DNA from: Paraflavitalea soli
GTDB lineage: Bacteria > Bacteroidota > Bacteroidia > Chitinophagales > Chitinophagaceae
NCBI RefSeq assembly: GCF_003555545.1
Contig: NZ_CP032157.1
Location: 7,568,546 to 7,632,545 of the forward strand
DNA length: 64,000 nt
Direction of reading: 5' to 3'
Positions 13,701 through 37,745 of this stretch are shown here, piece by piece. Each line of letters begins with the position of its first letter. Within the stretch, counting starts at the first letter, position 1. The notes under the pieces were generated by a model that was not told the DNA's origin, did no database searches, and saw only the letters and a list, made by a program, of their open reading frames with translations. The position numbers were made by a program, and so were the translations under genes.

Positions 13701-16700
13701 TTGGTCCGCACATTCAACCACATTAGACTTACAGCCTTATGTAGCGCTGCTTTGTTAGTCCTGTGCTGTTCTACAGCCATGGCTTTTCAGGCGCCTGTCC
13801 AGGCACCCCCCCAGCGAGTCCCGCAAGACACGCTGAAGTATCCTATTCATGACCGTCGCGGCGATAAATACTCCAATCCCACCAGGAGCGCATTCGACCT
13901 GAAAGACCCTGTAAACATTACAGACTCAGTAATCTACGACCCCAAGACCAAGCAGTATTACATCATTGAAAAGATCGGTACCTTCTATTACCGTAAACCT
14001 ACTTACCTCACTTTTGACGAGTTCATGCAATTGCAGGCCCGCAAAATGGAAGTAGATTATTTTAAGAAGCGCTCGAATATCCTCAGCAGCCTCAACAAGA
14101 AACTGCTGAAGCCTAAGATGTCGGTTACTGATAACCTGTTCAACCGCATATTTGGCAATGGTAAAGTAGAGATCAGGCCCCAGGGTGAGGTCAACATCAT
14201 TGCCGGTTACCAGGGACAGAATATTAAAAACCCGGCACTGCCCGAAAGAGCACGCAGGAACGGTGGCTTTGATTTCGACATGAATGCCAACCTGAGTGTG
14301 ATCGGGAATATCGGAGATAAACTGAAACTACCCATCAATTACAATACCCTGGCCAATTTTGACTTTGATAATCAACTGAAACTGGACTATACGGGTACTG
14401 AAGATGAGATCATTAAAAGGATTGAGGCAGGTAATATCGCCTTCTCCTCCAAAGGCTCCCTCATCCCCGGGGCCCAGCAATTATTTGGTATCAAAACCCA
14501 GCTGCAGTTCGGAAAGCTGTTTGTGACTGGCGTATTGGCCAACCAGCGTTCCCAAAGACAATCTTTGGGATTACAGGGCGGATCGTCCAATATGGCATTT
14601 GAGTTCAAGGCCAATGATTATGAGGAAAATCGTCACTTCCTGCTGGCCCAGTATTTCCGGAACAACTACAACAAGGCCATGTCCAACCTGCCCGTGGTGA
14701 ACTCGCAGATCCAGATCATGCGGATGGAAGTATGGGTAACCAACCGCAATGGCTCTACTACTGAGACCAGGGATATCGTGGGTTTGATGGACCTCGGTGA
14801 GCCCAATCCCTATAATACAACATTAGGCCCAGGCACCGAATTCCCACCCAATGGCGCGCCCGCTAACCGGGTGAATGGCCTTTACCAACGATTGTGGGAG
14901 GATCCCGTAAGCCGGCGTTCTTCCTCCGTTACCGGTAAATTGGCTTCCATGGGATTGCGTGCCGTACAGGATTTTGAAAAGACATTTGCCCGCAAGCTCA
15001 ATCCTTCAGATTATTATTTTAACCCACAGGTGGGTTTCTTGTCATTAAGCCAACCCCTGCAACCAGATGAAGTATTAGGTGTTGCCTTTCAGTATAGCTA
15101 TAACGGAAAGATCTTCCAGGTAGGGGAATTCTCCCAGGATGTACCGCCCGATACAACGGCGGCCGTATCCGGTACCCAGAAAGTATTGTTCCTCAAATTG
15201 CTGAAAGCCACTTCCCAACGTACCAACCTGCCTTTGTGGGAGCTGATGATGAAGAATGTCTATTCCCTGAAATCCGCCGATGGAAGCTACTTGTCCAGCA
15301 TACAGCCGGGCGATTTCAAACTGAATGTCTTATACGAACAACCCAGCCTCGGTAAAAAACGTTTCCTGCCGGAGGGGGATAAAACAGGCGTGCCGCTGAT
15401 CAATGTCCTCAACCTGGACCGGCTCAATGCACGAAATGACCCGTTACCCGACGGGGTGTTTGACTATATAGAAGGATTCACCGTCATTTCACAGCAGGCC
15501 CGCATCATCTTTCCTTTCCTCGAGCCTTTTGGCCGTGACCTGGAACAGCAGGCCTTTGCTACCAGTTCACAGGACATAAAACAGAAATATGTTTACTACC
15601 CGTTATATGATACGATCAAGGAAATAGCCAAGACCTACGCCAACCTCGACCGCTATATCATTCAGGGTTCGGCCAAAGGCAATTCCAGTTCTGAGATTCA
15701 ATTGGGAGCCTTCAATGTGCCGCAGGGCTCTGTGAGTGTTACAGCAGGAGGACAGACATTGAGAGAGAACGTAGACTATTCGGTCGATTATAACCTGGGT
15801 ACAGTAAAGATCCTCAACCAGGCAATCCTGAATTCAGGACTGCCAGTCAATGTGCAATTCGAGAACAATGGCGGGTTCGGTATTCAAAACCGGAACTTCC
15901 TGGGGCTAAGGCTGGATTATATGGCCAAAACTACTGCCCGGGAATCCCTCCAGATAGGAGCCACCATGGTACGCCTGGCCGAAAGACCTTTCTTCACCAA
16001 GACCGGTTACAACGAAGACCCTATCCGCAATACCATGTATGGGGTTGACTTCAACTATCGTACAGAAGCGCCCCGTCTTACCCATTGGCTGAATAAATTA
16101 CCTTTTTACAATAGCACCGAGATGAGTACCATCACCGCTTATGGTGAAGCTGCTTATCTGAAACCCGGCCACCCCAAGCAGATCGGTGAAGGTCGCAGCG
16201 GATTGATCTTTATTGATGACTTTGAAGGCGCCCGCAATGCCATTGACCTCCGGTTCCCGCTGGTCAACTGGGGCCTGGCTTCCACCCCCGCCGGCAATGG
16301 CCTGTTCCCGGAAGCCGACCTGCGCGATTCATTGCCTTATGGTATGAACAGGGCTAAAATAGCCTGGTATAATATTGAACCCGTATTACAGGACAAGCGG
16401 GCTGCCAACAACCCTATCCGTTCCAATCCGCCTGCCGGAGGCGCTGATGCAGAGTTTACCGATCCCCGCGTACGCCCCGTAAATGTGACGCAGATCTATC
16501 CCAACCGCACACCCGATTTTGGCCAGGCCCAACTGGTTACTTTCGATATGGCCTATTATCCTACTGATAAAGGGCCTTATAACTTTGATGCCATCAATGT
16601 TACCAGCGATGGTAAACTGCAGAACCCCGAAAAAAGATGGGGTGGTATCATGCGTGGCATTGACCAGGTGGATTTTGAGACCGGCAACGTAGAGTTCATT

Positions 16701-19700
16701 GAATTCTGGCTGCAGGATCCCTACCTGAAAAATCCGGGCAGCAATGGCGGTCAATTGTATTTCAACCTGGGTAATATATCAGAAGATGTATTGAAAGATG
16801 GCAAACGTTTCTTTGAGAACGGTATCAGCGGCGCGGTGACCAAGGCACTGGAAGATTCTGCCACCAAATGGGGTAAGGTACCTGCCAACCCCATTCAGGT
16901 AACCCAGGCCTTCAGTAATGACCCTGCCGACAGGCCATTGCAGGATGCCGGTTTCGATGGCCTGGATGATGAGGCCGAGCGCAGGAAATTCCAGAATTAC
17001 CTGAGCCAGCTGGCAGCCAACTTTGGCGTTAACTCAGCCATCTACCAAAAAGCTGTACAAGACCCTGCCAACGATAACTTCCTGAATTATCGTGATCAGG
17101 CCTATGATGCCTCTAAAACAGGTATCCTGGGTCGTTACAAGCAGGTCAATAGCCCGCAAGGCAATTCACCCGTAGCCAGTTCCGGCTCTGAATTTGTGAG
17201 CGCCTTTACACTGTATCCCGACCAGGAAGAGTTTAACCGCGATAATACACTCAATGAGCTGGAAGAATACTTTGAGTACAAGGTAGAGTTGAAAAGAAAT
17301 GAGTTTCTCGTAGGCCACAACTTTATTACAGATAGCATTGGCTTTACCCCCAGTGGCGGCATGCACGAAACCTGGTACTTGTTCCGTATACCGGTGGCCG
17401 GATACCAAAATAAAGTGGGTAATATTCCCGACTTTAAATCCATTCGTTTTATCCGGATGTACCTGACTGGTTTTACCGATTCAGTAGTATTGCGTTTTGC
17501 CAAACTGGAACTGGTGCGTAACCAATGGAGACGTTTCAATTACGAGTTAGATACCACAGGTCAGTATGTTACTATTCCGCCTACCTCATCTACCAGCTTC
17601 AAGCAACTGGCTGTTAACATTGAAGAAAACAGTTCCCGTAAACCAATACCTTATAGAACACCGCCCGGCGTTGTACGCCAGCAGCAGCTGAGTAATAACA
17701 ATGTGAACATATTGCTGAATGAGCAGTCATTGAGCTTACAGGTATGTGGGTTGCCTATCAAGGAAACAAGGGGTGTGTTCAAGACCATGAACCTCGACCT
17801 TCGTCAATATGGCCGCCTGCAGATGTATATCCACGCAGAGTCTGTTAACTCCAGTTCTGATATCAAGGATGGTGAATTGTATGGGGTGATCAGGTTGGGT
17901 AATGACCTTATCAATAACTTTTATGAAGTACGGATCCCATTAAAGATGACGCCGTGGAATACCAACTCGGATGACCTGATTTGGCCTTCCCAGAATGAAC
18001 TGGACCTTGAGTTGGAAAAACTGATCAAGTTGAAAGTGGTCCGTAACAATACCGGCTCTAATATTACTTATTTCAAACAAACCGAAGCGGATGGTAAAGA
18101 ATACGCCATCCTCGGAAATCCTAACCTGGGTGAAGTGCGTGTAATGTTTGCCGGTGTGGAAAATCGTCATCGCGAACTGGCTTGTACGGAAGTCTGGATC
18201 AATGAGCTTAGGCTGAGTGAGCTGAATGAGAAAGGCGCCTGGGCTGCATTGGGCCGCATCGATTTTAAGCTGGCCGACCTGGGTACTTTGTATCTTTCCG
18301 GAAGCGCCCGCAGTACCGGTTTTGGTACCCTGGAGCAAAGGATCAATGAACGTTCGCGCGACGATTTCAGCCAGTTTGATGTAGCCACACAACTGGAACT
18401 GGGTAAACTGCTGCCTCAAAAAGCAGGCATCTCTATTCCATTCTATGCCAGCTATTCCAAAACGGTAAGTACGCCTCAATACGATCCATATGACCTGGAC
18501 ATCAAACTGAAGGATAAGATAAAAGCCGCTCCCGGAAATCAGAAAGACTCTATCCGCAATGATGCCGTGGATATAAAGACCATTAAGTCGGTCAATTTCA
18601 CCAATGTGAAAAAGAACAATACCAGCGGTAAAAAGCAGCAGATATGGAGTATTGAGAATATTGATGTCAGTTATTCTTATTATAAAGAAGAGCAGCACAA
18701 CCCGCTGATTGAAAACAATGAGCTCACCCGCCATCGTGCAGGGCTTGGTTATAACTATTCTTCCACGCCCAAATATTGGGAGCCTGCCAAAAGACTGTTC
18801 AAGTCCAAATCACCCTGGCTGGCCATTATCAAGGATTTTAATATCAACCCGATGCCATCCTTATTGGGCCTGCGCTTTGATGTGAACCGCCAGTTTGGTG
18901 CTTACCGTCCACGCAATGTGGGTGAACCGAAAGGAAGTTTACCGGAGACCTATGATAAGTTCTTCACCTTTGATCGTGTCTATAACCTCCGTTGGGATCT
19001 TACCCGGTCTTTCAATGTGGATTTCACCGCTACCAACAAAGCGTGGATCGATGAAGACAGCGGACGGCTGGATAAGGCAGAGCGCAAGCGTATGTGGGAC
19101 AACCTGTGGAAGGGCGGCCGTACCATTTCCTATACGCAAACAGCGAACTTCTCTTATACGTTGCCCACTGGTAAAATACCTCTGCTGGACTGGACTACCA
19201 TAAGAGCCAACTATGTAGCATCATTCAACTGGATAGGGGCTTCACTCATTGCCCGCAACCTGGGCAATACCATTTCCAATACCCAGCAAAAGGGGTTGAA
19301 TGCAGAACTTGACTTTACGCGTTTGTACAGTAAATCGAGGTTGCTGCGCGCCTTTGACGAGGAGGGTGCTCCGGCCCCCGCACCTGTTGATCCCAATGCC
19401 AATAAGCAGGATACGACCGGCAAGAAAAAGCGGGTAAAAAGAGACCGCAGTCAGCCCCTGCAATTAAGTAATGGGGTGAAATTTGCCGGCCGGTTCCTCA
19501 CCATGCTGAAACGTATGAACCTGCAGTATGCAGAAAATGCCAGCGCCACCATCTTTGGTTATACAGATAGTACTAAGGTGATCGGCATGAATTTTAAATC
19601 CATGGCGCCGGGCCTGGGCTTCGTCTTTGGCAGGCAGCCCGATACCACCTTTATCAATACCATGGCCAAAAAAGGATGGCTGACTTCCGATTCGCTGTTC

Positions 19701-20900
19701 AACTTCCAGAACATGCAGGATTATTCGCAGAAGATTACCATCAATGCGCAACTGATGCCTATCCGTGATCTTACCATCGACATTAATCTCGATAAGAGTT
19801 TTGGTAAAAACTACCGTGAACTGTATAAGGATACTACCGGTACAGGATTACACTTTAGCCGCCTGGCGCCCTATACGGCAGGTAGTTTCAGTGTAAGCTG
19901 GATTGCCTTCAAAACGCTGTTTACACCAGTGAACCCCAATGAGGTATCTGAAACATTCCAGAAGTTTGAGAGTAACCGGATCATTCTTTCCAAACGACTG
20001 GCAGAACAGAATCCCTACTGGCAGGGCCTGCCCGCTAACGAAAAGATACAGTCGGATGGCTATTATACAGGTTATAACCGCTATGCAATAGACGTATTGA
20101 TACCTTCCTTTATTGCAGCCTATACAGGAAAGGATCCCAACAGCGTAGCCCTCATTAAACAAAGCAATCCGAATATCCGTTCCAATCCATTCTCTGGTAT
20201 CATTCCTAAACCCAATTGGGGGCTTACCTATACCGGGTTGACCCGTATACCAGGCATGGAGAAAATTTTTACCAGCTTTACACTCTCACACCGGTACAAC
20301 AGCCAGTTGAGTATGAATAGTTATAACTCATCATTGTTGTACCAGGATCGGTTTGCGCTTGCTTATCCGAGCTTTATTGATTCTACTTCCGGCAATTATG
20401 TCCCTTATTTCCTGGTGCCCAATATCACGATTGGGGAACGTTTTGAACCACTGATCGATTTTGATATGCAGTTCACCAACCAGGTGACTGCCAGGTTTGG
20501 TTTCAAGAAATCAAGGCAATTGAGTTTAAGTCTTATCGACTACCAACTCAGCGAATCCCGCTCTACAGAGTTTGAGATTGGAGCCGGTTATCGTAAGCGT
20601 GGTCTGTTCTCTTTCATTAAATGGAAAGGCAAGCCAATGGACAATGATGCCAGTTTCCGCCTCGACTTTAGTATCCGCGATGATATCACCGCCAATAGCC
20701 GCCTGGATCAAACGCAGACATTGCCTACCGCAGGGCAAAAAGTAGTCTTTATCAATCCCACTATTGATTACGTGATCAGTAACCGGGTTAATATCAAACT
20801 GTACTTTGAGCAACGGCGTGTAATACCTAAAATATCCACTTCACCTCCCATCACCAATACCAAGGCAGGGGTTCAAATACGTATATCACTGGCTCAGTAA
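13701..20900 (+). CDS. sprA: Cell-surface protein SprA, T9SS outer-membrane translocon
   Basis: Giant outer-membrane beta-barrel that forms the protein-conducting pore of the type IX secretion system and is needed for gliding in motile relatives. 2399 residues, matching the roughly 2400 of Flavobacterium SprA. It begins at a TTG codon (no ATG or GTG lies upstream in frame before the ruvA stop region) followed by a signal peptide (TALCSAALLVLCCSTAMAF). Two SprA N-terminal-type segments can be seen, near residues 150-300 (GEVNIIAGYQGQNIKNP, FDMNANLSVIGNIGDKLKLP) and in the middle (LIFIDDFEGARNAIDLR, about 833-850; VEFIEFWLQDPYL). The C-terminus ends in alternating barrel strands. PorV-type partner proteins bind SprA in known systems; a PorV/PorQ-like barrel is encoded at 34843. 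Confidence 0.96.
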   Translation: MVRTFNHIRLTALCSAALLVLCCSTAMAFQAPVQAPPQRVPQDTLKYPIHDRRGDKYSNPTRSAFDLKDPVNITDSVIYDPKTKQYYIIEKIGTFYYRKPTYLTFDEFMQLQARKMEVDYFKKRSNILSSLNKKLLKPKMSVTDNLFNRIFGNGKVEIRPQGEVNIIAGYQGQNIKNPALPERARRNGGFDFDMNANLSVIGNIGDKLKLPINYNTLANFDFDNQLKLDYTGTEDEIIKRIEAGNIAFSSKGSLIPGAQQLFGIKTQLQFGKLFVTGVLANQRSQRQSLGLQGGSSNMAFEFKANDYEENRHFLLAQYFRNNYNKAMSNLPVVNSQIQIMRMEVWVTNRNGSTTETRDIVGLMDLGEPNPYNTTLGPGTEFPPNGAPANRVNGLYQRLWEDPVSRRSSSVTGKLASMGLRAVQDFEKTFARKLNPSDYYFNPQVGFLSLSQPLQPDEVLGVAFQYSYNGKIFQVGEFSQDVPPDTTAAVSGTQKVLFLKLLKATSQRTNLPLWELMMKNVYSLKSADGSYLSSIQPGDFKLNVLYEQPSLGKKRFLPEGDKTGVPLINVLNLDRLNARNDPLPDGVFDYIEGFTVISQQARIIFPFLEPFGRDLEQQAFATSSQDIKQKYVYYPLYDTIKEIAKTYANLDRYIIQGSAKGNSSSEIQLGAFNVPQGSVSVTAGGQTLRENVDYSVDYNLGTVKILNQAILNSGLPVNVQFENNGGFGIQNRNFLGLRLDYMAKTTARESLQIGATMVRLAERPFFTKTGYNEDPIRNTMYGVDFNYRTEAPRLTHWLNKLPFYNSTEMSTITAYGEAAYLKPGHPKQIGEGRSGLIFIDDFEGARNAIDLRFPLVNWGLASTPAGNGLFPEADLRDSLPYGMNRAKIAWYNIEPVLQDKRAANNPIRSNPPAGGADAEFTDPRVRPVNVTQIYPNRTPDFGQAQLVTFDMAYYPTDKGPYNFDAINVTSDGKLQNPEKRWGGIMRGIDQVDFETGNVEFIEFWLQDPYLKNPGSNGGQLYFNLGNISEDVLKDGKRFFENGISGAVTKALEDSATKWGKVPANPIQVTQAFSNDPADRPLQDAGFDGLDDEAERRKFQNYLSQLAANFGVNSAIYQKAVQDPANDNFLNYRDQAYDASKTGILGRYKQVNSPQGNSPVASSGSEFVSAFTLYPDQEEFNRDNTLNELEEYFEYKVELKRNEFLVGHNFITDSIGFTPSGGMHETWYLFRIPVAGYQNKVGNIPDFKSIRFIRMYLTGFTDSVVLRFAKLELVRNQWRRFNYELDTTGQYVTIPPTSSTSFKQLAVNIEENSSRKPIPYRTPPGVVRQQQLSNNNVNILLNEQSLSLQVCGLPIKETRGVFKTMNLDLRQYGRLQMYIHAESVNSSSDIKDGELYGVIRLGNDLINNFYEVRIPLKMTPWNTNSDDLIWPSQNELDLELEKLIKLKVVRNNTGSNITYFKQTEADGKEYAILGNPNLGEVRVMFAGVENRHRELACTEVWINELRLSELNEKGAWAALGRIDFKLADLGTLYLSGSARSTGFGTLEQRINERSRDDFSQFDVATQLELGKLLPQKAGISIPFYASYSKTVSTPQYDPYDLDIKLKDKIKAAPGNQKDSIRNDAVDIKTIKSVNFTNVKKNNTSGKKQQIWSIENIDVSYSYYKEEQHNPLIENNELTRHRAGLGYNYSSTPKYWEPAKRLFKSKSPWLAIIKDFNINPMPSLLGLRFDVNRQFGAYRPRNVGEPKGSLPETYDKFFTFDRVYNLRWDLTRSFNVDFTATNKAWIDEDSGRLDKAERKRMWDNLWKGGRTISYTQTANFSYTLPTGKIPLLDWTTIRANYVASFNWIGASLIARNLGNTISNTQQKGLNAELDFTRLYSKSRLLRAFDEEGAPAPAPVDPNANKQDTTGKKKRVKRDRSQPLQLSNGVKFAGRFLTMLKRMNLQYAENASATIFGYTDSTKVIGMNFKSMAPGLGFVFGRQPDTTFINTMAKKGWLTSDSLFNFQNMQDYSQKITINAQLMPIRDLTIDINLDKSFGKNYRELYKDTTGTGLHFSRLAPYTAGSFSVSWIAFKTLFTPVNPNEVSETFQKFESNRIILSKRLAEQNPYWQGLPANEKIQSDGYYTGYNRYAIDVLIPSFIAAYTGKDPNSVALIKQSNPNIRSNPFSGIIPKPNWGLTYTGLTRIPGMEKIFTSFTLSHRYNSQLSMNSYNSSLLYQDRFALAYPSFIDSTSGNYVPYFLVPNITIGERFEPLIDFDMQFTNQVTARFGFKKSRQLSLSLIDYQLSESRSTEFEIGAGYRKRGLFSFIKWKGKPMDNDASFRLDFSIRDDITANSRLDQTQTLPTAGQKVVFINPTIDYVISNRVNIKLYFEQRRVIPKISTSPPITNTKAGVQIRISLAQ

Positions 20901-23137: not shown

Positions 23138-23229
23138 AGTCAGGAAGACGGGAAAGTCGGGAAGTCCGGAAGAGGCTTACTTTTCAACATCAATGTTTAC
23201 CGGCTTTCGGACTTCCGGTCTTTCGGACT
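23138..23229. repeat. Imperfect long inverted repeat of GTCCGGAAG-type units
   Basis: Left arm about 23138-23173 (AGTCAGGAAGACGGGAAAGTCGGG... onward), right arm 23200-23229 (CCGGCTTTCGGACTTCCG... onward). The reverse complement of the right arm matches the left with a few changes and one gap. Each arm is itself a tandem of AGTC(C/G)GGAAG-like units. It overlaps the last bases of the type B cargo gene on the minus strand and could act as its terminator. Confidence 0.6.
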
Positions 23230-25897
23230 ATCTAAGCAGCATTGCTATACCTTTTTTGATCACCGTCTTACCGGTATAATCCTTCCCCTTTACTTCCCAT
23301 ACATACATGCCGGAATCCTGCGGTTTGCCGCCCAGCCTGCCATCCCATCCCATTCCATGTTGAGAGGTTTGAAATACCATTTGGCCCCAGCGGTTGAATA
23401 CCCTGAAATATTCCATCTGCGTAATACCTACCGGTATCGGGCGCAGCCTGTTATTCTGCGAACCATCGGGGCGGAAAGCATTGGGCACAAATATTTGTGG
23501 GTTGGTTCGGAATACCTTGATGTTGATAGTGTCCAGATCATAGCAGCCTTCGGGTGTATAGGCCTTTAACTGGTAGGTGAAGCTATTACTTAAATTGGCA
23601 ATAGGATCTTTGATATCATTCCTGTTAAGATAGGTAGGCGGTGTCCACTCATAGAGATTGGCGCCCGTGCCATTCAGTTGTAGCGGTTCTCCAATAACTA
23701 CAGCAGTATCATTACCGGCAAAGGCGAATAATTGCTTGAGTACATTGACCAACACGGTATCTTTCTTTGGCTTGGGGCAGCCCAGGTTATCCCATACCGT
23801 CAATACATAGTTTGTGGGTATCCGCGGGAAGGCACGTGGATTGAGTATATTGGGATTACTTAAGGTATTGATGGGAGCCCACTCAAACCTGTTACCAATA
23901 ATAGAAGCATGGAGACTGGCTGTATCACCATAACAGATGGTGGTATCTCCGCCTGCCCTGGAGGTAGGATAAGGCACTGTTCTTACCTGCACATCATCCC
24001 TCGATGAACATTTACCGATCTCTGCTACCACCGAATACGTAGTGAACTGGTCGGTAGGTGATACCAGTGGATTTTTGGCAGTAATATCACTGATCGGGCT
24101 GGGTGATGGATTGGTGCTCCAGGTAAATTTAAGCCCATCCCCCGCTGGTCTTAACTGGATAGTATCAGTGAGGCAAATGGTGATGGGCCCGCCCAGCTCA
24201 AGCGTAACAACCGGCACCACGCGTACCTGTACCGTGTCTTCACTTATACAGCCGTTCTCGTCCAGCTGCACATGATAAGTGGTAGTGGTCTTGGGAAATA
24301 CCAAAGGATCGGGTGTATTGGTACGTAATATTTGCACCAGCGGCGTCCAGCTGAATATACCATTCCCTGCTGCATGCAGCTGCAGCGTATCCTGCACCAG
24401 CGCATTACTGCAAATAAGCGTATCCTTAAAGGCCAGGGTGATCGGAGGTTTATCGCGTATATCTGCATTCAGCGTAATGGTGTCTATACACCCCTTGTTG
24501 CTTTCCACGATCAATTCTACCGGCTTTTGTCCTATCGTGCTGTATTGCCAGGAAGGTGATTTCACATGTGATGTATCGTCCTGGGTGGTTTCATCACCAA
24601 AATTCCATCGCCATTTGCTGGCAAAGCCATACCGTGAGGTGGTCAGGTCGTTGAACTGAATGGGCTTTAACAGGCAGGTACCTGTAATGCTGAAATTGGG
24701 AAAAAAGCCCGGGTATACTTTTGCGAGCGTAGTAGTAGAGTCTACACACTGACCGGCCAATATTACCTTCAGCTTGATGGTATAGGTGCCGGTATCAGCA
24801 AACAAGTGCTGCACCCTTCCTTCCACATCGGATGTAGTATCTGCTTTTGTATTGTCTCCGTATTGCCATATATACACCGAATTGGCAGGATTTACCTGTT
24901 CATTCCTGAAGGTCACCAGGAAGTCATCGCAATACGAATAATCAGGCTTCAGCAATGCTTTGAGGGGTATACAATCCGCCACGCGGATATGGATATCTTT
25001 CCGGTGTATATTGATCAGGATATTGTCCCGGTATTCATAAGCGCAGGCCGTTACTACATATTGCCCTTCCACACTGGGTGCTGTACCCGACAGTAACCCG
25101 GTGGCGCTATTGATCGATACATTGAAACCCAATGGAGCCGATCCACTATAAGGCGACCGGTAGGGAATGGAGCTATAGGGTGGGGGGGCGGAAGGATCAG
25201 GCTGGGCGCAGGTTAAACAACTGGCGCCGCCGGTACTTCCCGGACCGCCGCCATTGTAGGCATTGCAGAGCCGGTAAACAATTGAATCTCCATCCGGGTC
25301 GTTGGCCGAGAAATCGAAGGTAAAGGCCGATCCAAAACAAATGGCCACAGCATCATTAGGGTTAAAAAGCGGACTGGAATTCTTGTAGGCAGCGCGGGTT
25401 ACGCCGGCAATAGTACCTGGAATATCGCATTTATAGGTAGCTCCGTAGTCATTACTACGGGCCGGCATATTCTTAATATCCTGTATGCGGCAACACCGCT
25501 GAAAGGCGATGGTATATCCCGCAGCTGAAACGGGCAGATCGATCGTTGTTTCAAAATACCGCAATAGGTAGCAAACGTCCTGGGGTGGATTGCTGATGCA
25601 GGGGTTGGAATTGGGGTCATATACTATCCGTTCCGACCTTGACAGGTTCACTTTAAAGTTCATGAACATCGAGTTATCAGCCCGGCTGAACACCGTAAAC
25701 GGCTGTACGGTCTCCAGTTGCCCTCCCTGGGCATTACAATCCACATACAATTTTAAGGTAACAATGTACCGGGACATGGTAGCCGTAGAATTGAGGCTGT
25801 CGTACCGGTAATACATTTCTCCCCCCCTTACGTGTGCAGCAAGCAATGGCTGGATAAGGCAGGATAGAAATAGAAATATTAAAAAGAATTTCTTCAT
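23228..25897 (-). CDS. Large surface/secreted protein with PKD-like domains and T9SS type B C-terminal domain
   Basis: 889 residues with signal peptide (MKKFFLIFLFLSCLIQPLLAA). The N-terminal half has many cysteines (for example NPCISNPPQDVCYLL, FQRCCRIQ, GGASCLTCAQ). PKD-like beta domains follow at about 315-480 (YIWQYGDN, GTYTIKLKV, WRWNFGDETTQDD), then repeated Ig-like units with an 'ICxxDTxxLxxxGxxxxxW' pattern (about 485-770). The last ~90 residues (PQIFVPNAFRPDG..., FRVFNRWGQMVFQT, GWDGRLGGKPQDSGMYVW, ending AMLLR) form a gliding-motility-associated C-terminal domain, the type B T9SS signal. Probably exported through SprA and attached to or released from the surface. Ligand unknown. Confidence 0.88.
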   Translation of the reverse strand: MKKFFLIFLFLSCLIQPLLAAHVRGGEMYYRYDSLNSTATMSRYIVTLKLYVDCNAQGGQLETVQPFTVFSRADNSMFMNFKVNLSRSERIVYDPNSNPCISNPPQDVCYLLRYFETTIDLPVSAAGYTIAFQRCCRIQDIKNMPARSNDYGATYKCDIPGTIAGVTRAAYKNSSPLFNPNDAVAICFGSAFTFDFSANDPDGDSIVYRLCNAYNGGGPGSTGGASCLTCAQPDPSAPPPYSSIPYRSPYSGSAPLGFNVSINSATGLLSGTAPSVEGQYVVTACAYEYRDNILINIHRKDIHIRVADCIPLKALLKPDYSYCDDFLVTFRNEQVNPANSVYIWQYGDNTKADTTSDVEGRVQHLFADTGTYTIKLKVILAGQCVDSTTTLAKVYPGFFPNFSITGTCLLKPIQFNDLTTSRYGFASKWRWNFGDETTQDDTSHVKSPSWQYSTIGQKPVELIVESNKGCIDTITLNADIRDKPPITLAFKDTLICSNALVQDTLQLHAAGNGIFSWTPLVQILRTNTPDPLVFPKTTTTYHVQLDENGCISEDTVQVRVVPVVTLELGGPITICLTDTIQLRPAGDGLKFTWSTNPSPSPISDITAKNPLVSPTDQFTTYSVVAEIGKCSSRDDVQVRTVPYPTSRAGGDTTICYGDTASLHASIIGNRFEWAPINTLSNPNILNPRAFPRIPTNYVLTVWDNLGCPKPKKDTVLVNVLKQLFAFAGNDTAVVIGEPLQLNGTGANLYEWTPPTYLNRNDIKDPIANLSNSFTYQLKAYTPEGCYDLDTINIKVFRTNPQIFVPNAFRPDGSQNNRLRPIPVGITQMEYFRVFNRWGQMVFQTSQHGMGWDGRLGGKPQDSGMYVWEVKGKDYTGKTVIKKGIAMLLR

Positions 25898-29673: not shown

Positions 29674-30780
29674 TTACCTGGTCAATTTATATCTTTTTCC
29701 TGGCAGGCATTGAAGGAGGCCCTGTAATTCCATATTAAGGATTGCGGCAGCAATCGTACTGCTGCTGAGACCGCTGTGTAGATTGAGCTCATCAATATGC
29801 ACCGTTTCATGTTGGGCAATTATTTGCGCCAGTTTTTGTTCATCAGGTGTCAGCTCCACAAACAGGTCTTGCTGTGCAGCAGGTGCGCGCCGGTGCTGAT
29901 CTGCCCATCCCATCAGTTCAATAAATTCCTGTGTATCCGTAAGCAGCATGGCCTTATTGCTTCGGATGAGGTAATTGCAGCCGGCGCTTTTGGGGTCCGT
30001 CACCTTACCGGGCCAGGCAAATACATCCTTGTTGTAACTGTTGGCCAGCTCCGCAGTGATCATGCTGCCTCCCTTAATGCCTGTCTCTACCACGATGGTA
30101 GCATCACTCATGCCTGCTACGATGCGGTTGCGGGCTGGGAAATTGTGCTTATCTGGTTTCGTATTGCTACAGAACTCCGTCAGCAACCCGCCTCCCTGTT
30201 TGATCATGTCTTTGGCCAGTTGCGTATGCTGCGCAGGATAGATCGTATCCAGCCCATGGCCCAACACACCTACAGTGGGCAGGCTGTTCCTGATAGCTGC
30301 TTTGTGCGCCAGTGCATCGATGCCAAAAGCCAGGCCGCTGACAATAAGGACCTCCTTTTCGGAGAGTTCTCTCACCAACTTTTCCGTGATAAACTTGCCA
30401 TAATCCGAATGGCTGCGGGTACCGATAATGGCTACTACACGCGCTGCATTGAGGTTGGCGCCTCCCCGGTAAAACAACAGGGTAGGAGCATCGTAACAAT
30501 GCAATAAGCGTTGTGGATAATCGGGATCAGTGATGAATAGTGACCGGATCTTGTATTTTTCAATAAAGGCAATCTCCTTTTCAGCTGCTTCAAAACCCGT
30601 GAACTGATGAATAGCGGCCGCTCTTACAGCGCCAATGCCTTCTATCTTTTCCAGTTGGGCAGGGCGTGCTTTAAATATGGCGGCAGCCGTGCCAAAATGT
30701 TCCGCAAGGGTTTTAGCATGTACAAGGCCGATATGCGGCACATGCCCCAGGGCAAGCTGATATAACAGGTCGTTTTTCAT
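29674..30780 (-). CDS. dprA: DNA-processing protein DprA
   Basis: Loads RecA on incoming single-stranded DNA in natural transformation, and is widespread also in cells not known to be competent. 368 residues: N-terminal helix-hairpin-helix-like segment (LEKIEGIGAVRAAAI, about 43-57), extended Rossmann domain with VVAIIGTRSHSDYGK, LIVSGLAFGIDALAHKAA, GVLGHGLDTIYP, FPARNRIVAG and VVETGIKGGSMITAELA (about 110-285), and a C-terminal winged-helix-like domain (HIDELNLHSGLSSSTIAAAILNMELQGLL, about 325-355). It lies 73 bases downstream of the PorE-like gene and may be co-transcribed with it. Confidence 0.95.
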   Translation of the reverse strand: MKNDLLYQLALGHVPHIGLVHAKTLAEHFGTAAAIFKARPAQLEKIEGIGAVRAAAIHQFTGFEAAEKEIAFIEKYKIRSLFITDPDYPQRLLHCYDAPTLLFYRGGANLNAARVVAIIGTRSHSDYGKFITEKLVRELSEKEVLIVSGLAFGIDALAHKAAIRNSLPTVGVLGHGLDTIYPAQHTQLAKDMIKQGGGLLTEFCSNTKPDKHNFPARNRIVAGMSDATIVVETGIKGGSMITAELANSYNKDVFAWPGKVTDPKSAGCNYLIRSNKAMLLTDTQEFIELMGWADQHRRAPAAQQDLFVELTPDEQKLAQIIAQHETVHIDELNLHSGLSSSTIAAAILNMELQGLLQCLPGKRYKLTR

Positions 30781-30853: not shown

Positions 30854-32773
30854 TTAGTGGCTGATCACTTTCATTTCAGTACGCCTGTTCTGCGCACGGC
30901 CTTCTTCTGTAGCATTATCAGCTACAGGCACCGTGGCACCAAAGCCCTTAAAGCTGAGGCGTTGCGCATTAATGCCTTTACCCACCAGGTATTTCACGAC
31001 AGCCTGTGCCCGGTTGTTGGACAATACCAGGTTGTCTTCCGGTTTGCCCACATTGTCCGTATGCCCGCCGATCTGTATCTTGATCGTTGGATTGTCGCGC
31101 AACAAGAGGAATAGTTTATCCAGTTCCGAAGTAGAGGCAGGTTTGAGGTCAAACTGTTTGGAATCAAAGAATATATTCTTCAGCACAATGGATGCATTAG
31201 CCTCCAGCGGCTGCAGGGGAATATCGATATGGTACGTGGAGTCAGGCACTTTCTGGCTCAAAGAGAAATTATCGGAGAAAAATAAATAACCCTTACGGTT
31301 TACATTGAACGCATAGTCTTTGCCCACCGGCAGGGTAACGAGGTAATTGCCCGTTTCATCCGTTTGCACTTTGCTCATCACTTCCTGTGTAGCGAGATCG
31401 GTCAACTCAATGGCACTCGGAAGACCTTTGGTCGTTTTCTTATCGAATACTTTTCCTTTCACCCACAGCGTGCGGTCCGGACGAATATCATTGCGCAATT
31501 CAAAAGTATAAATATCAAGTCCGCCCTTACTATCACTGCGGTCACTGGCATAATAGGCCGTTTTGCCATCCGCTGCAATGATCAGGCTGCCTTCATTTTC
31601 AATGGTGTTGATGGGATAGCCCAGGTTAATGGCTTTGCCCCAGGTGCCTTTGGATCCTTTTTTGATCATGAACAGGTCATCCCCTCCGTATCCCAGGTGG
31701 CCATTGGAGGTGAAATACAGCGTTTGATTATCAGCATGAATAAAGGGACAGCTTTCGTCGCCGGCAGTATTGACTTCGGGCCCCAGGTTCTCGGCTTCCG
31801 TCCACTGGCCACTGGGCAGGTAATGACTTACATAAATATCACTGCCTCCATAGCCGTCATTACGTTTGCTGGCAAAGTACAGATCGCGCTTGTCGGGCGA
31901 TAAGGTGGGCGCTGAATCCCATCCATCGCTGTTTACTTTATTGCCGAGGTTTACCGGCGCACTCCATCCATCCATGGTGAGATAAGAGATGTACAGGTCA
32001 CAACTGCCATATCCATCGGGAAAATTGCAACCCGTAAAAATGAGCCATTGTCCATCCTGTGAAATGCTTTGTGCGCCTTCGTTGGCATCCGTATTGATAT
32101 TGCCTTCGAGTGGCCGGGCTTTGGACCACTTGCCATCTACACGCGTAGAGCCAAAGAAATCTTCGTTGTAATTTTTGATCCGGCGGGTAATGATCAGTTC
32201 ATTGCCGTCGATGGTGAGCGCAGGATAATATTCGGAGACCACCGAATTGATACTATCGCCCATATTCTGTGGCTCGAACTTATAATCAGACAAGGTTTTT
32301 TGTTTACCATATTCTATTGCAAACTGGTAGCTTTTCTGACGAAACTCGCCGGCCTGCCGGCTTTTTTCATTGAGGTTGGTGATGGTCAGGAATTCTTTGA
32401 CGGCTTCCAGGGCTTTGGTGAAATCACCTTTGCCGGCCAGGTTGATGGAGAAGGGCAGGTTGTAATCCTGGAAGTAGGCCGCATCGATGGCTTTGGCTTT
32501 CTCATAGTTTTCGATGGCGCCCTGGTAATCCTTCATTTCGCCATACATACCTGCAATAGAGAGGTAGGCATCCAGGAAACGGGGTTCCACTTTCACCGCA
32601 TCTTTCAGCAGGAGAATACCTCCTTTAAAGTCGTCGTCCTGGGCTTTCCGGATCGCTCGTTCATACAATTCTACCGCTCTTCTGCTCACTTTGGCAGGAT
32701 CATATTGCTGAGCCATGATCAACGCCGGAGCAAAAAGAAATGACAATATGGTACAGAAGCGCTTGATGCTCAT
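30854..32773 (-). CDS. OmpA-family protein with TPR, beta-propeller and CRD domains (PorE-like)
   Basis: 639 residues: signal peptide (MSIKRFCTILSFLFAPALIMAQ); TPR helices at about 28-130 (AVELYERAIRKAQDDDF, DYQGAIENYEKAKAID); a WD40/PD40-type propeller at about 185-420 with repeated 'SxDGxxLxFxS' units (SPDKRDLYFASKRNDGYGGSDIYVS, ADNQTLYFTSNGHLGYGGDDLF); a carboxypeptidase-regulatory-like domain at about 435-520; and a C-terminal OmpA peptidoglycan-binding domain (IKIQIGGHTDNVGK, NRAQAVVKYLV). This order of four domains is that described for PorE of the T9SS. Several paralogues with this order usually occur per genome, so the PorE role is inference. No lipobox cysteine is seen near the cleavage site. 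Confidence 0.85.
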   Translation of the reverse strand: MSIKRFCTILSFLFAPALIMAQQYDPAKVSRRAVELYERAIRKAQDDDFKGGILLLKDAVKVEPRFLDAYLSIAGMYGEMKDYQGAIENYEKAKAIDAAYFQDYNLPFSINLAGKGDFTKALEAVKEFLTITNLNEKSRQAGEFRQKSYQFAIEYGKQKTLSDYKFEPQNMGDSINSVVSEYYPALTIDGNELIITRRIKNYNEDFFGSTRVDGKWSKARPLEGNINTDANEGAQSISQDGQWLIFTGCNFPDGYGSCDLYISYLTMDGWSAPVNLGNKVNSDGWDSAPTLSPDKRDLYFASKRNDGYGGSDIYVSHYLPSGQWTEAENLGPEVNTAGDESCPFIHADNQTLYFTSNGHLGYGGDDLFMIKKGSKGTWGKAINLGYPINTIENEGSLIIAADGKTAYYASDRSDSKGGLDIYTFELRNDIRPDRTLWVKGKVFDKKTTKGLPSAIELTDLATQEVMSKVQTDETGNYLVTLPVGKDYAFNVNRKGYLFFSDNFSLSQKVPDSTYHIDIPLQPLEANASIVLKNIFFDSKQFDLKPASTSELDKLFLLLRDNPTIKIQIGGHTDNVGKPEDNLVLSNNRAQAVVKYLVGKGINAQRLSFKGFGATVPVADNATEEGRAQNRRTEMKVISH

Positions 32774-32960: not shown

Positions 32961-33584
32961 TCAAGGCACATTAATGTACTTGTGTATTTGGAGCGATAGC
33001 TCCCATTGAGGGTTTTCTTTAATGTATTCAATGAGGAGGGGCGTCATTTCTTTGGATTTGTCCCACTCAGGCGCCAGGTATAGTTTGCAGGTGGGAGATA
33101 CCTGTGCGGCATATTTTTCGGCCCAGGCAAAGTCGCTTTTGTTGAAGATCACCACTTTCAGCTCATGTGCCAGGGGTAGGATCTCCGGGAGGGGAAATTT
33201 GAATTTTTTTGGGGAGAGGCATATCCAGTCCCATTCGCCACTAAGTGGCGAGGAGCCAGACGTTTCTATATTCGTCTGAAAACCAGCTTCATGCAGTGCT
33301 GCCGTGAGGGTGTCCAGGTTATGCATAAGGGGCTCTCCGCCCGTAATGACGGCCATCCTGCCCGGATAGGCGGCAGCGGCTGATACTATTTCATCAATGC
33401 TTTGCTGTGGGTGTCTGGAAGCGTCCCAGCTGTCTTTTACGTCGCACCATACGCAGCCCACATCACAGCCACCCAGGCGGATAAAATAGGCTGCTTTGCC
33501 CTGGTAATAGCCCTCTCCCTGAATGGTGTAGAAGGATTCCATGACGGGTAAACTGATCACGGCCGGTGCTGCACTTACTTTCAT
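32961..33584 (-). CDS. queE: 7-carboxy-7-deazaguanine synthase (radical SAM)
   Basis: Converts 6-carboxytetrahydropterin to 7-carboxy-7-deazaguanine on the way to queuosine. The start is placed at 33584 (MKVSAAPAVISLP...), giving 207 residues; the frame continues open to 33776 but that part is not protein-like and includes inverted repeats. MESFYTIQGEGYYQG (15-29), the radical SAM cluster GGCDVGCVWCD (C-x3-C-x2-C), and VITGGEPLMH are clear. A full -7 box TAATTTTG (complement of 33591-33598) ends six bases before this ATG, which also supports the start. The queD step may be served by one of the PTPS paralogues at 6.8-7.7 kb. Confidence 0.93.
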   Translation of the reverse strand: MKVSAAPAVISLPVMESFYTIQGEGYYQGKAAYFIRLGGCDVGCVWCDVKDSWDASRHPQQSIDEIVSAAAAYPGRMAVITGGEPLMHNLDTLTAALHEAGFQTNIETSGSSPLSGEWDWICLSPKKFKFPLPEILPLAHELKVVIFNKSDFAWAEKYAAQVSPTCKLYLAPEWDKSKEMTPLLIEYIKENPQWELSLQIHKYINVP

Positions 33585-33902
33585 AGGGCGCAAAATTACA
33601 ATATTCCTGTTTGTTGGAGAAGCCAGAGCACCCACACTGCCCGATCGCCCAATGGTAATTGCACTGCGTAGGCCTACGACTTGCACTGACCTAGCCTGTA
33701 CAGTGCAAGTCGGGGTAGCATCCGGGTGCAATCGAGGGTTACATAATAGGCACAGGATCAAGGATATGGAGGCCAAATTCGCACTTGGGCGAAAAAGCCC
33801 AGTGCAATTCGGAAACTTTAAGGCATAGCATTACTGTCTGATTTTGAGTCAGTTGGAGCCGAAATAAGGCTCATTTTGTGACAAATTCGAGGGGAAACAA
33901 TC
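33585..33902. other. Gap between folD and queE with a cluster of TTGCACTG elements
   Basis: No gene is supported. TTGCACTG occurs at 33659-33666 and 33681-33688; its reverse complement CAGTGCAA occurs at 33701-33708 and 33800-33807. The middle two are part of a perfect 12-base inverted repeat (33677-33688 and 33701-33712) with a 12-base loop. A 10-base palindrome GTAGGCCTAC is at 33668-33677. A further hairpin GCACTTGGGC/GCCCAGTGC spans 33781-33805. The queE -7 box is at its left end (33591-33598). Confidence 0.6.
33591..33598 (-). promoter_or_regulatory. queE -7 box TAATTTTG next to the start codon
   Basis: A full TAnnTTTG match on the minus strand, separated from the queE ATG by CGCCCT only. 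No clear -33 TTTG is found at the usual distance. Confidence 0.45.
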
Positions 33903-34842: not shown

Positions 34843-35691
34843 TTGAAAAACCATTGCCTGCCAGGCACTTTGAAGTACTGGTTATTGTCCTGCTGTTGGC
34901 TGGCCGTATCACCGGCCAGTGCACAATCGCTCCGCTATCCACAGGCGGCGCCCTATATAGGCCAGGGAGCCTATAGTTTCCACTTTGTAGATGTTTTTTC
35001 CTGTATGGCCAACCAGGCCGCATTGGCCGGCCTGTCCCAGGCTGGAGGAGGGGTATATGCTGAAAAAAGATTCCTGCAGGAAAAACTAAACAGTTACAAC
35101 GCCATCGTTGCCCTGCCCACCCGGCTGGGCGGATGGGGCATCTCCGCCCAATACCTCGGATCGGGCGAGTACAATGAATCGCAGGTAGGCCTTGCCTATG
35201 GCAAAAAACTGGGACGGGTAGACCTGGGAGTACAATTCAACTATGCCATGATGCGGGCGGCAGGCTATGGCAGCGACGGCACAATGATCGTTGAAATAGG
35301 CACCCTTTGGCATATTACCGACCAGGTGCATATAGGCATGCATATCTTCAATCCTTCCGGCGGAAAGTATGGAAAGCTGGAACAGGAAAAAATGGCCTGG
35401 GTATATAAAGTTGGAGGTGGGTATGAGGCTTCCGAAAAATTATTGGTCAGCGCTGATATTATAAAAGAAGAAAACAAAGCGGTGAATGTTCAGGTGGGTA
35501 TCCACTATGCCCTTGACCACCGGTTTTTTATGCGTGCAGGCATTGCCACTTCCACTACCACCCCCTGGCTGGGCGCCGGCTGGGCCTGGAAAAACATACG
35601 TGCCGATATTACGGGCAGCTATCATCCCCAATTGGGGGTCACACCCGGACTGCTGCTCATTTTTACTACTACTAAAGAACACGCCGATTGA
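34843..35691 (+). CDS. Outer-membrane beta-barrel protein, PorV/PorQ-like
   Basis: 282 residues beginning at TTG; no ATG or GTG is available upstream in frame, and the TTG is followed by a proper signal peptide (LKYWLLSCCWLAVSPASAQ). After it come DVFSCMANQAALAGLSQAGGGVYAEKRF and then regular amphipathic strands (WGISAQYLGSGEYNESQVGLAYGKKL, VDLGVQFNYAMM, HIGMHIFNPSG, VSADIIKEENKAVNVQVGIHYAL). The 'NQAALAG' opening resembles the NPAxLA segment of the FadL-like PorV/PorQ family. It overlaps the next gene by TTGA, so the two are made together. It is divergent from folD across 64 bases. Role: possibly a T9SS partner or a companion of the HhH barrel. Confidence 0.72.
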   Translation: MKNHCLPGTLKYWLLSCCWLAVSPASAQSLRYPQAAPYIGQGAYSFHFVDVFSCMANQAALAGLSQAGGGVYAEKRFLQEKLNSYNAIVALPTRLGGWGISAQYLGSGEYNESQVGLAYGKKLGRVDLGVQFNYAMMRAAGYGSDGTMIVEIGTLWHITDQVHIGMHIFNPSGGKYGKLEQEKMAWVYKVGGGYEASEKLLVSADIIKEENKAVNVQVGIHYALDHRFFMRAGIATSTTTPWLGAGWAWKNIRADITGSYHPQLGVTPGLLLIFTTTKEHAD

Positions 35692-37745
35692 AAAAACTGC
35701 TTAGCCTCGTTATAGTAATACTGTGCCATGGAGCATTTGCGCAGGAACCACCGCCTGTACAAGAACAGCAATTGGAAAACCAGGCCGAAACCACCGAAAT
35801 GGAGAATGAAGATGACAGCTACTGGCAGCAGTTGGAATCGTTGCGCCGTCATCCGCTGGATCTTAATGCGGCTACCCAGGCCGATCTGGAAGCACTGCCC
35901 CTGCTGAATGCCTTACAAATAGCCAACTTTCTGCGTTACCGCAGCTTGTTGGGGAGGCTGGTAAGTATACATGAGCTGCAGGCCATTCCGGGTTGGGATG
36001 TACATACTATCAGGCAATTGCTGCCACTCGTAATATTGGGCACGGGCGAAGATCCTGCCGCACCGCTTGGCAGGCGGCTGGTGGCAGGTACTCATTCGCT
36101 TTTGTTAAGGGCTTCGCAGGTGCTGGAAAAAGCAAAAGGGTTTCAGCCACCGCTTACGCCCGATAAGGATCATTACCAGGGTAGTCCTGTCCGTGTTTTC
36201 TCCCGGTATCGCTATAACTACCATAACCTGCTTCAATATGGTATAACGGCCGATAAGGATGCCGGCGAATCCTTATTGAGCGGATCGTCTAAGGCAGGGA
36301 TTGATTTTTACTCCTTTCATTTTTTTGCGCGTAAGCTGGGTAAGATAAAAGCGTTGGCCCTGGGTGATTTTACTGTCAACATGGGGCAGGGGCTCATACA
36401 CTGGCAAAGCCTGGCCTTTAAAAAAAGCGCTGCTGTATTACAGGTAAAACGCCAGGGGCCTGTACTGAGACCCTATAGCGCAGCTGGTGAATATTATTTT
36501 CACCGGGGCGCAGGCATTACCCTTCAACACAAGAATTGGGAAACTACTTTATTTGCCTCCTTCCGCAAACTGGACGCCAACCTGGTCAATGACAGCATCA
36601 CTTCTGTGCTGACTTCCGGGTATCATCGTACGCTGGCTGAACTCAACGACCGGCAAAACCTGGAGCGGATCACAACTGGTGGTAATATCCGGTATAGCCG
36701 CCCGCGCTGGCAAATCGGATTCAATACCGTTCAATACGCGTTTTCCAAGTCATTTAAGCGATCGGGAGCGCCCTATGATATTTTTGCCGTAGAAGGTAAG
36801 CATTGGGGCAACCACAGCGTGGATTACAGCTTTACCCACCGCAACCTGCATATATATGGAGAGGCGGCTGTTGATCAGCAAATGAACAAAGCACTATTGA
36901 ATGGCATGCTGATGAGCCTTGATCCCAAAGTTGATATGGCGCTTGTATACCGTCGGATGGATAAGGATTACCAGGCCCTGCAGGGAAATGCTTTTACCGA
37001 AAATTATTTGCCGGGTAATGAACAGGGATTGTATGGCGGCCTCAGTCTACGCCCATCACCCTCCTGGCAATTGGATGCTTATGCCGATTGCTTCCGGTTT
37101 CCCTGGCTGAAGTACCGGGTTAATGCACCGGGGGATGGGGGCGAATATCTTTTACAATTACTGTATAAACCTAATAAAGGGGTAGAGCTGTCAAGCCGTT
37201 ACCGGCATGAACACAAACCTGCCAACAGTACAGACGACGAAGGCCCCTTAAAGCCTGTGATAAAAGCCACCAGGCAAAACTGGCGTACGCAGGTAATGTT
37301 TCAGGCAACACCTGCTATTGTGCTGAAGAGCAGGGTAGAGCTGGTATGGTACCAGGGCGGTACTGCAGCAAACGCTGAAAAAGGTTTTGCTGCCTTCACA
37401 GAAGTCTTTTATGTACCTAAAAATTCTTTCTCGGCCAATATGCGGATACAGTTTTTCGAAACAGACAGTTATAATGCGCGCATCTATGCGTACGAACAGG
37501 ATGTACAATATTATTTTTCCATACCACAATTTATTGGCAAAGGGCTCCGGTATTATATTAATTGCAAGCAAAACCTATCCTCCATCCTGCTCCGTAAGCG
37601 TGCCAGAAAGGTAGACTGCGTGGTGTGGTTACGTTTGGCACAGTTTTTATTTCCGGAGAAGACGCTTATTGGTAGTGGTTTTGACGAAATGAGCACACGA
37701 AAAAAGACAGAATTCAGGCTCCAGCTTATGTTAATCACTCGTTAA
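35688..37745 (+). CDS. Outer-membrane beta-barrel protein with N-terminal ComEA-like helix-hairpin-helix repeats
   Basis: 685 residues, again starting at TTG and overlapping the previous stop. Signal peptide MKKLLSLVIVILCHGAFAQ, a short acidic linker (QAETTEMENEDDS), then a tandem helix-hairpin-helix unit at about 57-115 (LDLNAATQADLEALP..., LLGRLVSIHELQAIPGWDVHTIRQLL) in the layout of ComEA. The hairpin glycines of the first motif are replaced (LLN for GIG), so DNA binding is uncertain. From about residue 130 to the end there are barrel-type strands (VRVFSRYRYNYHNLLQYG, WQIGFNTVQYAF, FSANMRIQFFETD, FRLQLMLITR). Inference: an outer-membrane barrel whose periplasmic head could contact DNA or another protein. 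No experimentally defined relative is known to me. Confidence 0.75.
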   Translation: MKKLLSLVIVILCHGAFAQEPPPVQEQQLENQAETTEMENEDDSYWQQLESLRRHPLDLNAATQADLEALPLLNALQIANFLRYRSLLGRLVSIHELQAIPGWDVHTIRQLLPLVILGTGEDPAAPLGRRLVAGTHSLLLRASQVLEKAKGFQPPLTPDKDHYQGSPVRVFSRYRYNYHNLLQYGITADKDAGESLLSGSSKAGIDFYSFHFFARKLGKIKALALGDFTVNMGQGLIHWQSLAFKKSAAVLQVKRQGPVLRPYSAAGEYYFHRGAGITLQHKNWETTLFASFRKLDANLVNDSITSVLTSGYHRTLAELNDRQNLERITTGGNIRYSRPRWQIGFNTVQYAFSKSFKRSGAPYDIFAVEGKHWGNHSVDYSFTHRNLHIYGEAAVDQQMNKALLNGMLMSLDPKVDMALVYRRMDKDYQALQGNAFTENYLPGNEQGLYGGLSLRPSPSWQLDAYADCFRFPWLKYRVNAPGDGGEYLLQLLYKPNKGVELSSRYRHEHKPANSTDDEGPLKPVIKATRQNWRTQVMFQATPAIVLKSRVELVWYQGGTAANAEKGFAAFTEVFYVPKNSFSANMRIQFFETDSYNARIYAYEQDVQYYFSIPQFIGKGLRYYINCKQNLSSILLRKRARKVDCVVWLRLAQFLFPEKTLIGSGFDEMSTRKKTEFRLQLMLITR

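Follow-up and report, generated by a model that had tools for sequence, protein, structure and literature searches.

What is made by two overlapping genes that encode a small and a large outer-membrane barrel, when the large one carries a head resembling a DNA receptor? The question is posed by genes A and B of Paraflavitalea soli, which lie in a 64,000-nucleotide stretch (positions 7,568,546 to 7,632,545 of contig NZ_CP032157.1; hereafter the window) of a single-contig genome of 8.44 Mb; among named genomes, its closest relatives come from Paraflavitalea and other Chitinophagaceae. A preliminary description, made from the sequence alone, had proposed that B, in which a helix-hairpin-helix (HhH) head like that of ComEA precedes a barrel, is a one-piece port for DNA. 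Here, the two genes were found to be kept together through much of the Bacteroidota and A to be almost confined to genomes with SprA, the outer-membrane translocon of the type IX secretion system (T9SS), while the head of B has lost the motif with which HhH hairpins contact DNA. We tentatively favor, at somewhat less than an even chance, the reading that the two barrels join in one complex, A docking on B and the head of B binding protein, and that this complex works beside the T9SS in most carriers.

Predicted folds of A and B

The close coupling of the two reading frames and their TTG starts, as first described, are borne out: the frames overlap on the same strand (Table 1), and no other ATG, GTG or TTG lies between either start codon and the in-frame stop upstream, eight codons away for A and four for B. 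The double TTG start is no family trait; a heuristic start call gives TTG for 39 of 78 A relatives and 12 of 80 B relatives. Signal peptides on both proteins, likewise proposed, can be recognized in the sequence and in the models, and residue Q28, directly after that of A, is nearly invariant in the alignment of A relatives.

Table 1. Features of the A-B locus and of T9SS-related genes in the window (positions within the window)
Feature	Positions	Strand	Basis or remark
Gene A, 282-residue PorV/FadL-type 14-strand outer-membrane barrel (predicted), TTG start	34843..35691	+	
A signal peptide, residues 1-27	34843..34923	+	Sequence and model
A barrel strands, residues 68-275	35044..35667	+	AlphaFold model
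Overlap of A end and B start, 4 bases	35688..35691	+	Spacing of -4 also in 54/78 relatives
Gene B, 685-residue HhH-headed 24-strand outer-membrane barrel (predicted), TTG start	35688..37745	+	
B (HhH)2 head, residues 44-118, GxG hairpin motif lost	35817..36041	+	Presumably periplasmic
B 24-strand barrel, residues 135-684	36090..37739	+	AlphaFold model
B 39-residue loop, residues 233-271 (GQGL...)	36384..36500	+	Model and conservation
sprA, T9SS outer-membrane translocon	13701..20900	+	2489 bits, cut-off 200
Protein with T9SS type B sorting domain, sub-threshold	23228..25897	-	28.1 bits, cut-off 35
OmpA-ended protein, CHU_0125-like and PorE-like	30854..32773	-	316/620 and 282/600 bits, under both cut-offs

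AlphaFold models were built from 75 aligned sequences each, the window's protein with 74 of 80 B relatives or 74 of 78 A relatives. The model of A (predicted local distance difference test score, pLDDT, 90.9) is a 14-strand barrel whose N-terminal part is helical; the loops between its strands are 2-7 residues long, with one exception of 17. Residues 28-279 align with FadL (Z 27.1, root-mean-square deviation 2.5 over 247 residues), and an N-terminal segment followed by a 14-strand barrel that superposes on FadL places the model in the FadL superfamily. Relative to FadL, PorV (6h3i_F) scores slightly lower (Z 25.8, deviation 2.4 over 248 residues), and it has the highest sequence identity to A (21%) among the structural matches; in a search of the PDB with a profile of A it was the sole sequence found, weakly (E 0.55). 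The NCBIfam PorV/PorQ family (NF033709) matched A at 27.8 bits, under its 90-bit cut-off, and two relatives of A elsewhere in the phylum reached 53.1 and 81.5 bits. On the model, A is a distant relative of PorV with a FadL-type barrel, in agreement with the earlier assignment. It differs from PorV/PorQ proteins such as the PorV of 6h3i and 8gl6 in being short, nearly loop-less and encoded with a large barrel, and its short predicted loops do not match the cargo-binding extracellular loops described in the accessible part of PMC10994853. FadL-type chains from three entries of the β-barrel assembly machinery (BAM) also matched the model, at Z 22-24. In the Bacteroidota BAM, BamG is a FadL-type 14-strand barrel that docks on a larger barrel (PMC12578637, from an excerpt); unlike BamG, A is encoded beside its putative partner, and its 282 residues compare with 390-406 in the FadL-type BAM chains.

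The model of B (pLDDT 89.5, predicted template-modeling score 0.87) has helices at residues 44-114 followed by 24 strands, consistent with the proposed fusion of a ComEA-type HhH domain to a pore-sized barrel. The best Foldseek match was 6r2q_B of the Mtr complex, which we take to be MtrB (E 2.6e-12, TMq 0.39), followed by AlgE and ushers, and a second structural search (VIA) returned AlgE (Z 16.2), Wzi (Z 15.7), OprD-type porins (near Z 16) and the ushers FimD/PapC (Z 13-14 over 360-382 residues). These proteins share a wide barrel with B but not its HhH head, and the matches are weak and unspecific (TMq at most 0.39 among those listed); no close relative of the B barrel stands among the listed matches of either search, which does not prove that none exists. 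Searches of the PDB with the sequence of B alone gave no match at E 1, and those with a profile of its barrel gave nothing up to E 1.

If both ends of B are periplasmic, as the assignment of its loops presumes, the outer-side loops are conserved across the phylum at a mean of 0.455 compared to 0.430 for the strands, with nearly invariant positions at 29 of 199 loop residues and 27 of 312 strand residues. Because surface loops of porins are usually variable, conserved outer-side loops of this kind are probably turned inwards or in contact with a conserved partner. The 39-residue loop, which would lie on the outer side under the same presumption, is among the better conserved parts of B and is a possible gate or plug. 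Charge is common among the nearly invariant residues of B, many of which are acidic or basic: K190, D191, E194, E268, R314, E318, E392, R422, E445, D467, R549, R586 and E603.

The head was recognized by Pfam HHH_3 at residues 55-111 (E 1.2e-4, 22.6 bits, cut-off 27; 27.2 bits in the genome search), and a profile search of the PDB related it to EEPD1 of the nuclease family (E 1.2e-7) and to ComEA (E 8.9e-5), with which it shares the (HhH)2 fold. Its score against the curated comE family was 15.3 bits (E 0.014, cut-off 152), with distant B relatives at 23-29.5 bits. The GxG hairpins of HhH domains contact DNA. The preliminary description had pointed to lost glycines in the first hairpin and suggested that the head could bind protein instead; GxG is missing from hairpin 1 in 75/75 family and 40/40 phylum sequences of B, and from hairpin 2 in 75/75 and 34/40 (the other six retain it). 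A single glycine of hairpin 2 is kept in 46/75 and 22/40. The net charge of residues 44-118 has a median of 0 in the family (range -4 to 3; at least 0 in 56 of 75) and of -4 in the phylum (range -7 to 2); in the phylum alignment behind these counts, the head is poorly aligned in one row (L186; genomes, loci and families are given by our working labels G, L and f). In contrast to ComEA, then, the head of B is devoid of GxG hairpins, neutral to acidic and fused to a 24-strand barrel. A caution comes from a 311-residue three-HhH protein of the same genome, L002, in which a single repeat out of three has GIG and the repeat charges are 4, 2 and 0.

HhH domains also occur at the C-terminus of seven A-like barrels (L194-L200) of families f12, f15 and f28. 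The three that were run against Pfam reached 62-67 bits (cut-off 27), five of six in an NCBIfam scan matched PorV/PorQ at 51-68 bits (cut-off 90), and their HhH charges run from -2 to 2. Since the domain is found with either type of barrel, the sequences are consistent with a head that serves as a periplasmic adaptor.

A different arrangement was seen in family f23 and its neighbors G297 and G382, where proteins of 644-704 residues (L187-L193) end in an HhH domain. Second HhH frames of this length in f23 had been considered as further copies of B; the two scanned are not B, and combine phospholipase D-like stretches and a staphylococcal-nuclease domain with a strong HHH_3 match, so that they are possibly exported nucleases.

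Pairing of A and B and links to type IX secretion

The preliminary description left co-occurrence as a check. All 30 family loci fetched, that of the window among them, have A upstream of B (the alignments covered 27 of the 30), as do 78 of the best 80 B loci kept from a scan of genome contigs, both misses being at contig ends. The spacing in these 78 ranges from -8 to about 320 bases, with -4 the value in 54. In the class sample of 188 genomes, with a gap below 1.5 kb taken as adjacent and G000 and G004 left out, A stands just upstream of B in 111 of the 127 genomes with both rows listed, about 2 kb away in two and elsewhere in 14. Across the phylum sample of 296 Bacteroidota genomes, from which 40 loci were fetched, A lies upstream on the same strand in 24, including one (L164) at about 0.6 kb. 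This pairing exceeds chance by far. In f2, a strong match to A stands on a different contig from B in four of five genomes. Matches to B were found in 49 of 117 family genomes (in G066 to the head alone, and in G036 to a decayed copy) and, with a profile, in 225 of the 296 phylum genomes, 204 of them strong. A tree of 44 B proteins required five changes of the A-adjacency label over 27 rows, compared to a mean of 13.8 when labels were shuffled. The tree is compatible with an old pair that underwent a few losses or separations.

The literature searched names no characterized A-B pair in titles or abstract openings. A mere lead is BT3167 of B. thetaiotaomicron, a member of the iron stimulon with a helix-hairpin-helix annotation (an excerpt of PMC10434189). 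A defense role was considered and dropped, neither A nor B having a PADLOC match at E 0.01.

Two irregular B relatives deserve mention. In L206 (G036:C1:829000-838000), a decayed relative of 646 residues begins at about 3967 and has 14 in-frame TGA codons with no TAA or TAG, while five other open reading frames of at least 150 residues end in TAA. Because most TGA sites align with Leu/Ile/Phe-type residues, recoding of TGA as Trp appears unlikely. In f58, B relatives show open frames of up to 1114 residues; in one of them (L202 of G410) the upstream part overlaps gene A in a low-complexity, G+C-rich frame and is probably an artefact.

The link of A to the T9SS was measured in the 296 genomes, with strong matches defined by hand-set cut-offs (B, E<1e-30; A, E<1e-15; 21 genomes with weak B and 25 with weak A set aside); the rows behind these counts, and behind those of the class sample and of sprA distances, were transcribed by hand. 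Strong A was found in 136 SprA-positive genomes and one SprA-negative genome, and any A match in 158 and four. Of the genomes with strong B, those with SprA have strong A in 125 of 139 cases and those without it in 1 of 65. The SprA-positive genomes divide into 125 with A and B, 11 with A only, 14 with B only and 78 with neither.

Next to A itself, the commonest neighbor of B in the phylum is porD, divergent beside A in 15 of 40 loci by clustering and in 16 by profile. These 16 come from nine families and are all A-positive, the NCBIfam PorD model confirmed 15 of 15 tested neighbors, and G265 (f13), outside the 40 loci, has porD in the same place. The next commonest neighbor cluster reaches 8 of 40 loci. 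In the window, sprA ends 14 kb upstream of A. In the 48 B-bearing genomes of the family that were compared (G066, in which only the head matched, is omitted), sprA is on the same contig in 32 and at most 50 kb from B in 22; in the other 16, B and sprA are on different contigs and the distance cannot be judged. Taken together, the genomic evidence on A and B leans towards the T9SS.

Several observations pull the other way. In the window's own family, synteny by descent may account for the nearness of sprA, because folD and dprA are also kept near: within the flanks available for 80 family-group loci, folD occurs in 68, a radical-SAM gene in 59, an OmpA-type gene in 56 and dprA in 49, and porD in none. 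In the phylum, 16 of the 40 loci have no A within 20 kb of B. Strong B occurs in 65 genomes that lack SprA, B goes unmatched in 69 that have it, and B and SprA are negatively associated (p 4e-9). B is for this reason no core part of the T9SS, and a strict reading of it as a T9SS component was rejected on the 65 SprA-negative genomes. As a single family, f17, accounts for 62 of these 65 (the remaining three being G118, G340 and G348), losses of SprA with B kept are few events, and the A-SprA link itself rests on few independent losses (f17, f11 and G118). Exceptions run in both directions: among the seven of 188 class-sample genomes without SprA, B is kept without A in G118, G340, G348 and G523, both are present in G454 (130 contigs, 95% complete), and neither is present in G424 (0.5 Mb) or G562 (56% complete), while G550 (f11) and family f10 have SprA and B without A. 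The loops of the A model are too short for holding cargo as PorV does, and deletion of PorD in F. johnsoniae had no detectable effect, as reported in part of PMC10994853, though in P. gingivalis it lowered secretion efficiency (PMC8754138, in part).

Other genes stand near B in the window or its relatives. Positions 26757-27917 of the window encode a protein related to Lnb, a lipoprotein N-acyltransferase (274.8 bits, cut-off 550), and the gene at 32961-33776, with a Pfam match to Radical_SAM only, is presumably queE. In three f8 loci (L154, L156 and L162), a POTRA-bearing protein of 483-530 residues is encoded on the strand of B and two or three genes upstream; the one tested scored 29.5 bits, and an Omp85-type partner is possible.

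A proposed two-barrel complex and its rivals

In the two-barrel reading that we favor, B would be a gated pore of 24 strands, with its conserved outer-side loops and conserved charged residues as the working parts, and A a stripped-down PorV/FadL-type barrel that docks on the wall of B, as PorV does on SprA or BamG on BamA. The (HhH)2 head, hanging below the membrane, would act as a protein-binding adaptor to periplasmic partners and not as a DNA receptor, with these partners most plausibly on the T9SS side. Precedent exists in PorV bound to SprA and PorD bound to SprE/PorW (excerpts of PMC10994853 and PMC8754138). The joint complex would most likely aid the export or maturation of a surface component alongside the T9SS, and B alone would retain a T9SS-independent role in some lineages. 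A bolder form, in which A-B is a second SprA-PorV-like two-barrel machine of the outer membrane with a 24-strand pore and a repurposed ComEA-type head plugged into the periplasmic T9SS proteins PorD/SprE, is in our judgment unlikely; it could perhaps have been missed because entire SprA-bearing families, f4 and f5 among them, lack A-B.

The main rival is that B is a general pore exporting polysaccharide, lipid or another surface polymer independently of the T9SS, with A as a FadL-type companion and synteny by descent as the cause of porD and sprA lying near. The persistence of strong B in SprA-negative genomes suits such an exporter, as do its best structural matches, which are large barrels that include several exporters or conduits (6r2q_B, AlgE, Wzi and FimD/PapC). 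In two of four f23 loci (L165 and L172), moreover, the gene after B falls in a cluster of which the one member tested is a polysaccharide-export protein (Poly_export, 59.6 bits). Against this, A scarcely occurs in genomes that lack SprA, porD adjoins the pair across nine families at about twice the frequency of the next neighbor cluster, and the structural resemblance is weak and unspecific. We consider a T9SS-independent exporter rather doubtful, if a serious competitor.

Considerably less probable is that A is a specialized T9SS shuttle, handing sorting-domain cargo to B as its final surface anchor. Proteins of the PorV and PorP/SprF types carry cargo to set destinations (PMC12618676, in part), A is a PorV relative adjoining B, and the same window encodes the weak type B sorting-domain and PorE-like proteins of Table 1. 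However, carriers hold their cargo with extracellular loops (from the portion of PMC10994853 available), for which the predicted loops of A leave little room, and no cargo gene was found among the recurrent neighbors, of which some clusters only were annotated.

The port for DNA uptake or export, in which a ComEA-like head pulls DNA through the barrel of B, is the least probable of these readings and was judged unlikely, although the head is related by profile to ComEA and EEPD1, a 24-strand barrel may be wide enough for DNA, and dprA does lie 4 kb away, as first described (29674-30780, 240.6 bits, cut-off 191). The loss of GxG and the charge of the head weigh against it. In the same family-level group, 49 of 80 relatives have dprA in their flanks; across the phylum, dprA was near B in 0 of 40 loci, in a search that recovered B in 40 and A in 24. 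The genome also encodes the separate, membrane-anchored L002 (G000:C1:7041664-7042596), with three HHH_3 matches. A screen in Riemerella found a three-HhH predicted periplasmic protein essential for transformation, together with a different predicted outer-membrane protein that was proposed as the channel (from the accessible text of PMC8459023). L002 fits the description of this three-HhH protein in the text available, and appears more likely than B to be the transformation protein of the genome. As a query, L002 found matches in 197 of the 296 phylum genomes. These were long in the class of the window, also in f4 and f5, which lack B; elsewhere they were mostly short and HhH-only, some of them the head of B itself.

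B is thus a large and probably gated barrel, kept through much of the phylum, to which the literature searched assigns no function. If the two-barrel complex stands on the T9SS side, it would be an extra outer-membrane port for a system that is drawn with one translocon; if it stands outside, it would be a route retained by lineages after the loss of SprA. Either way, an HhH annotation that looks like DNA binding becomes a testable protein-coupling domain.

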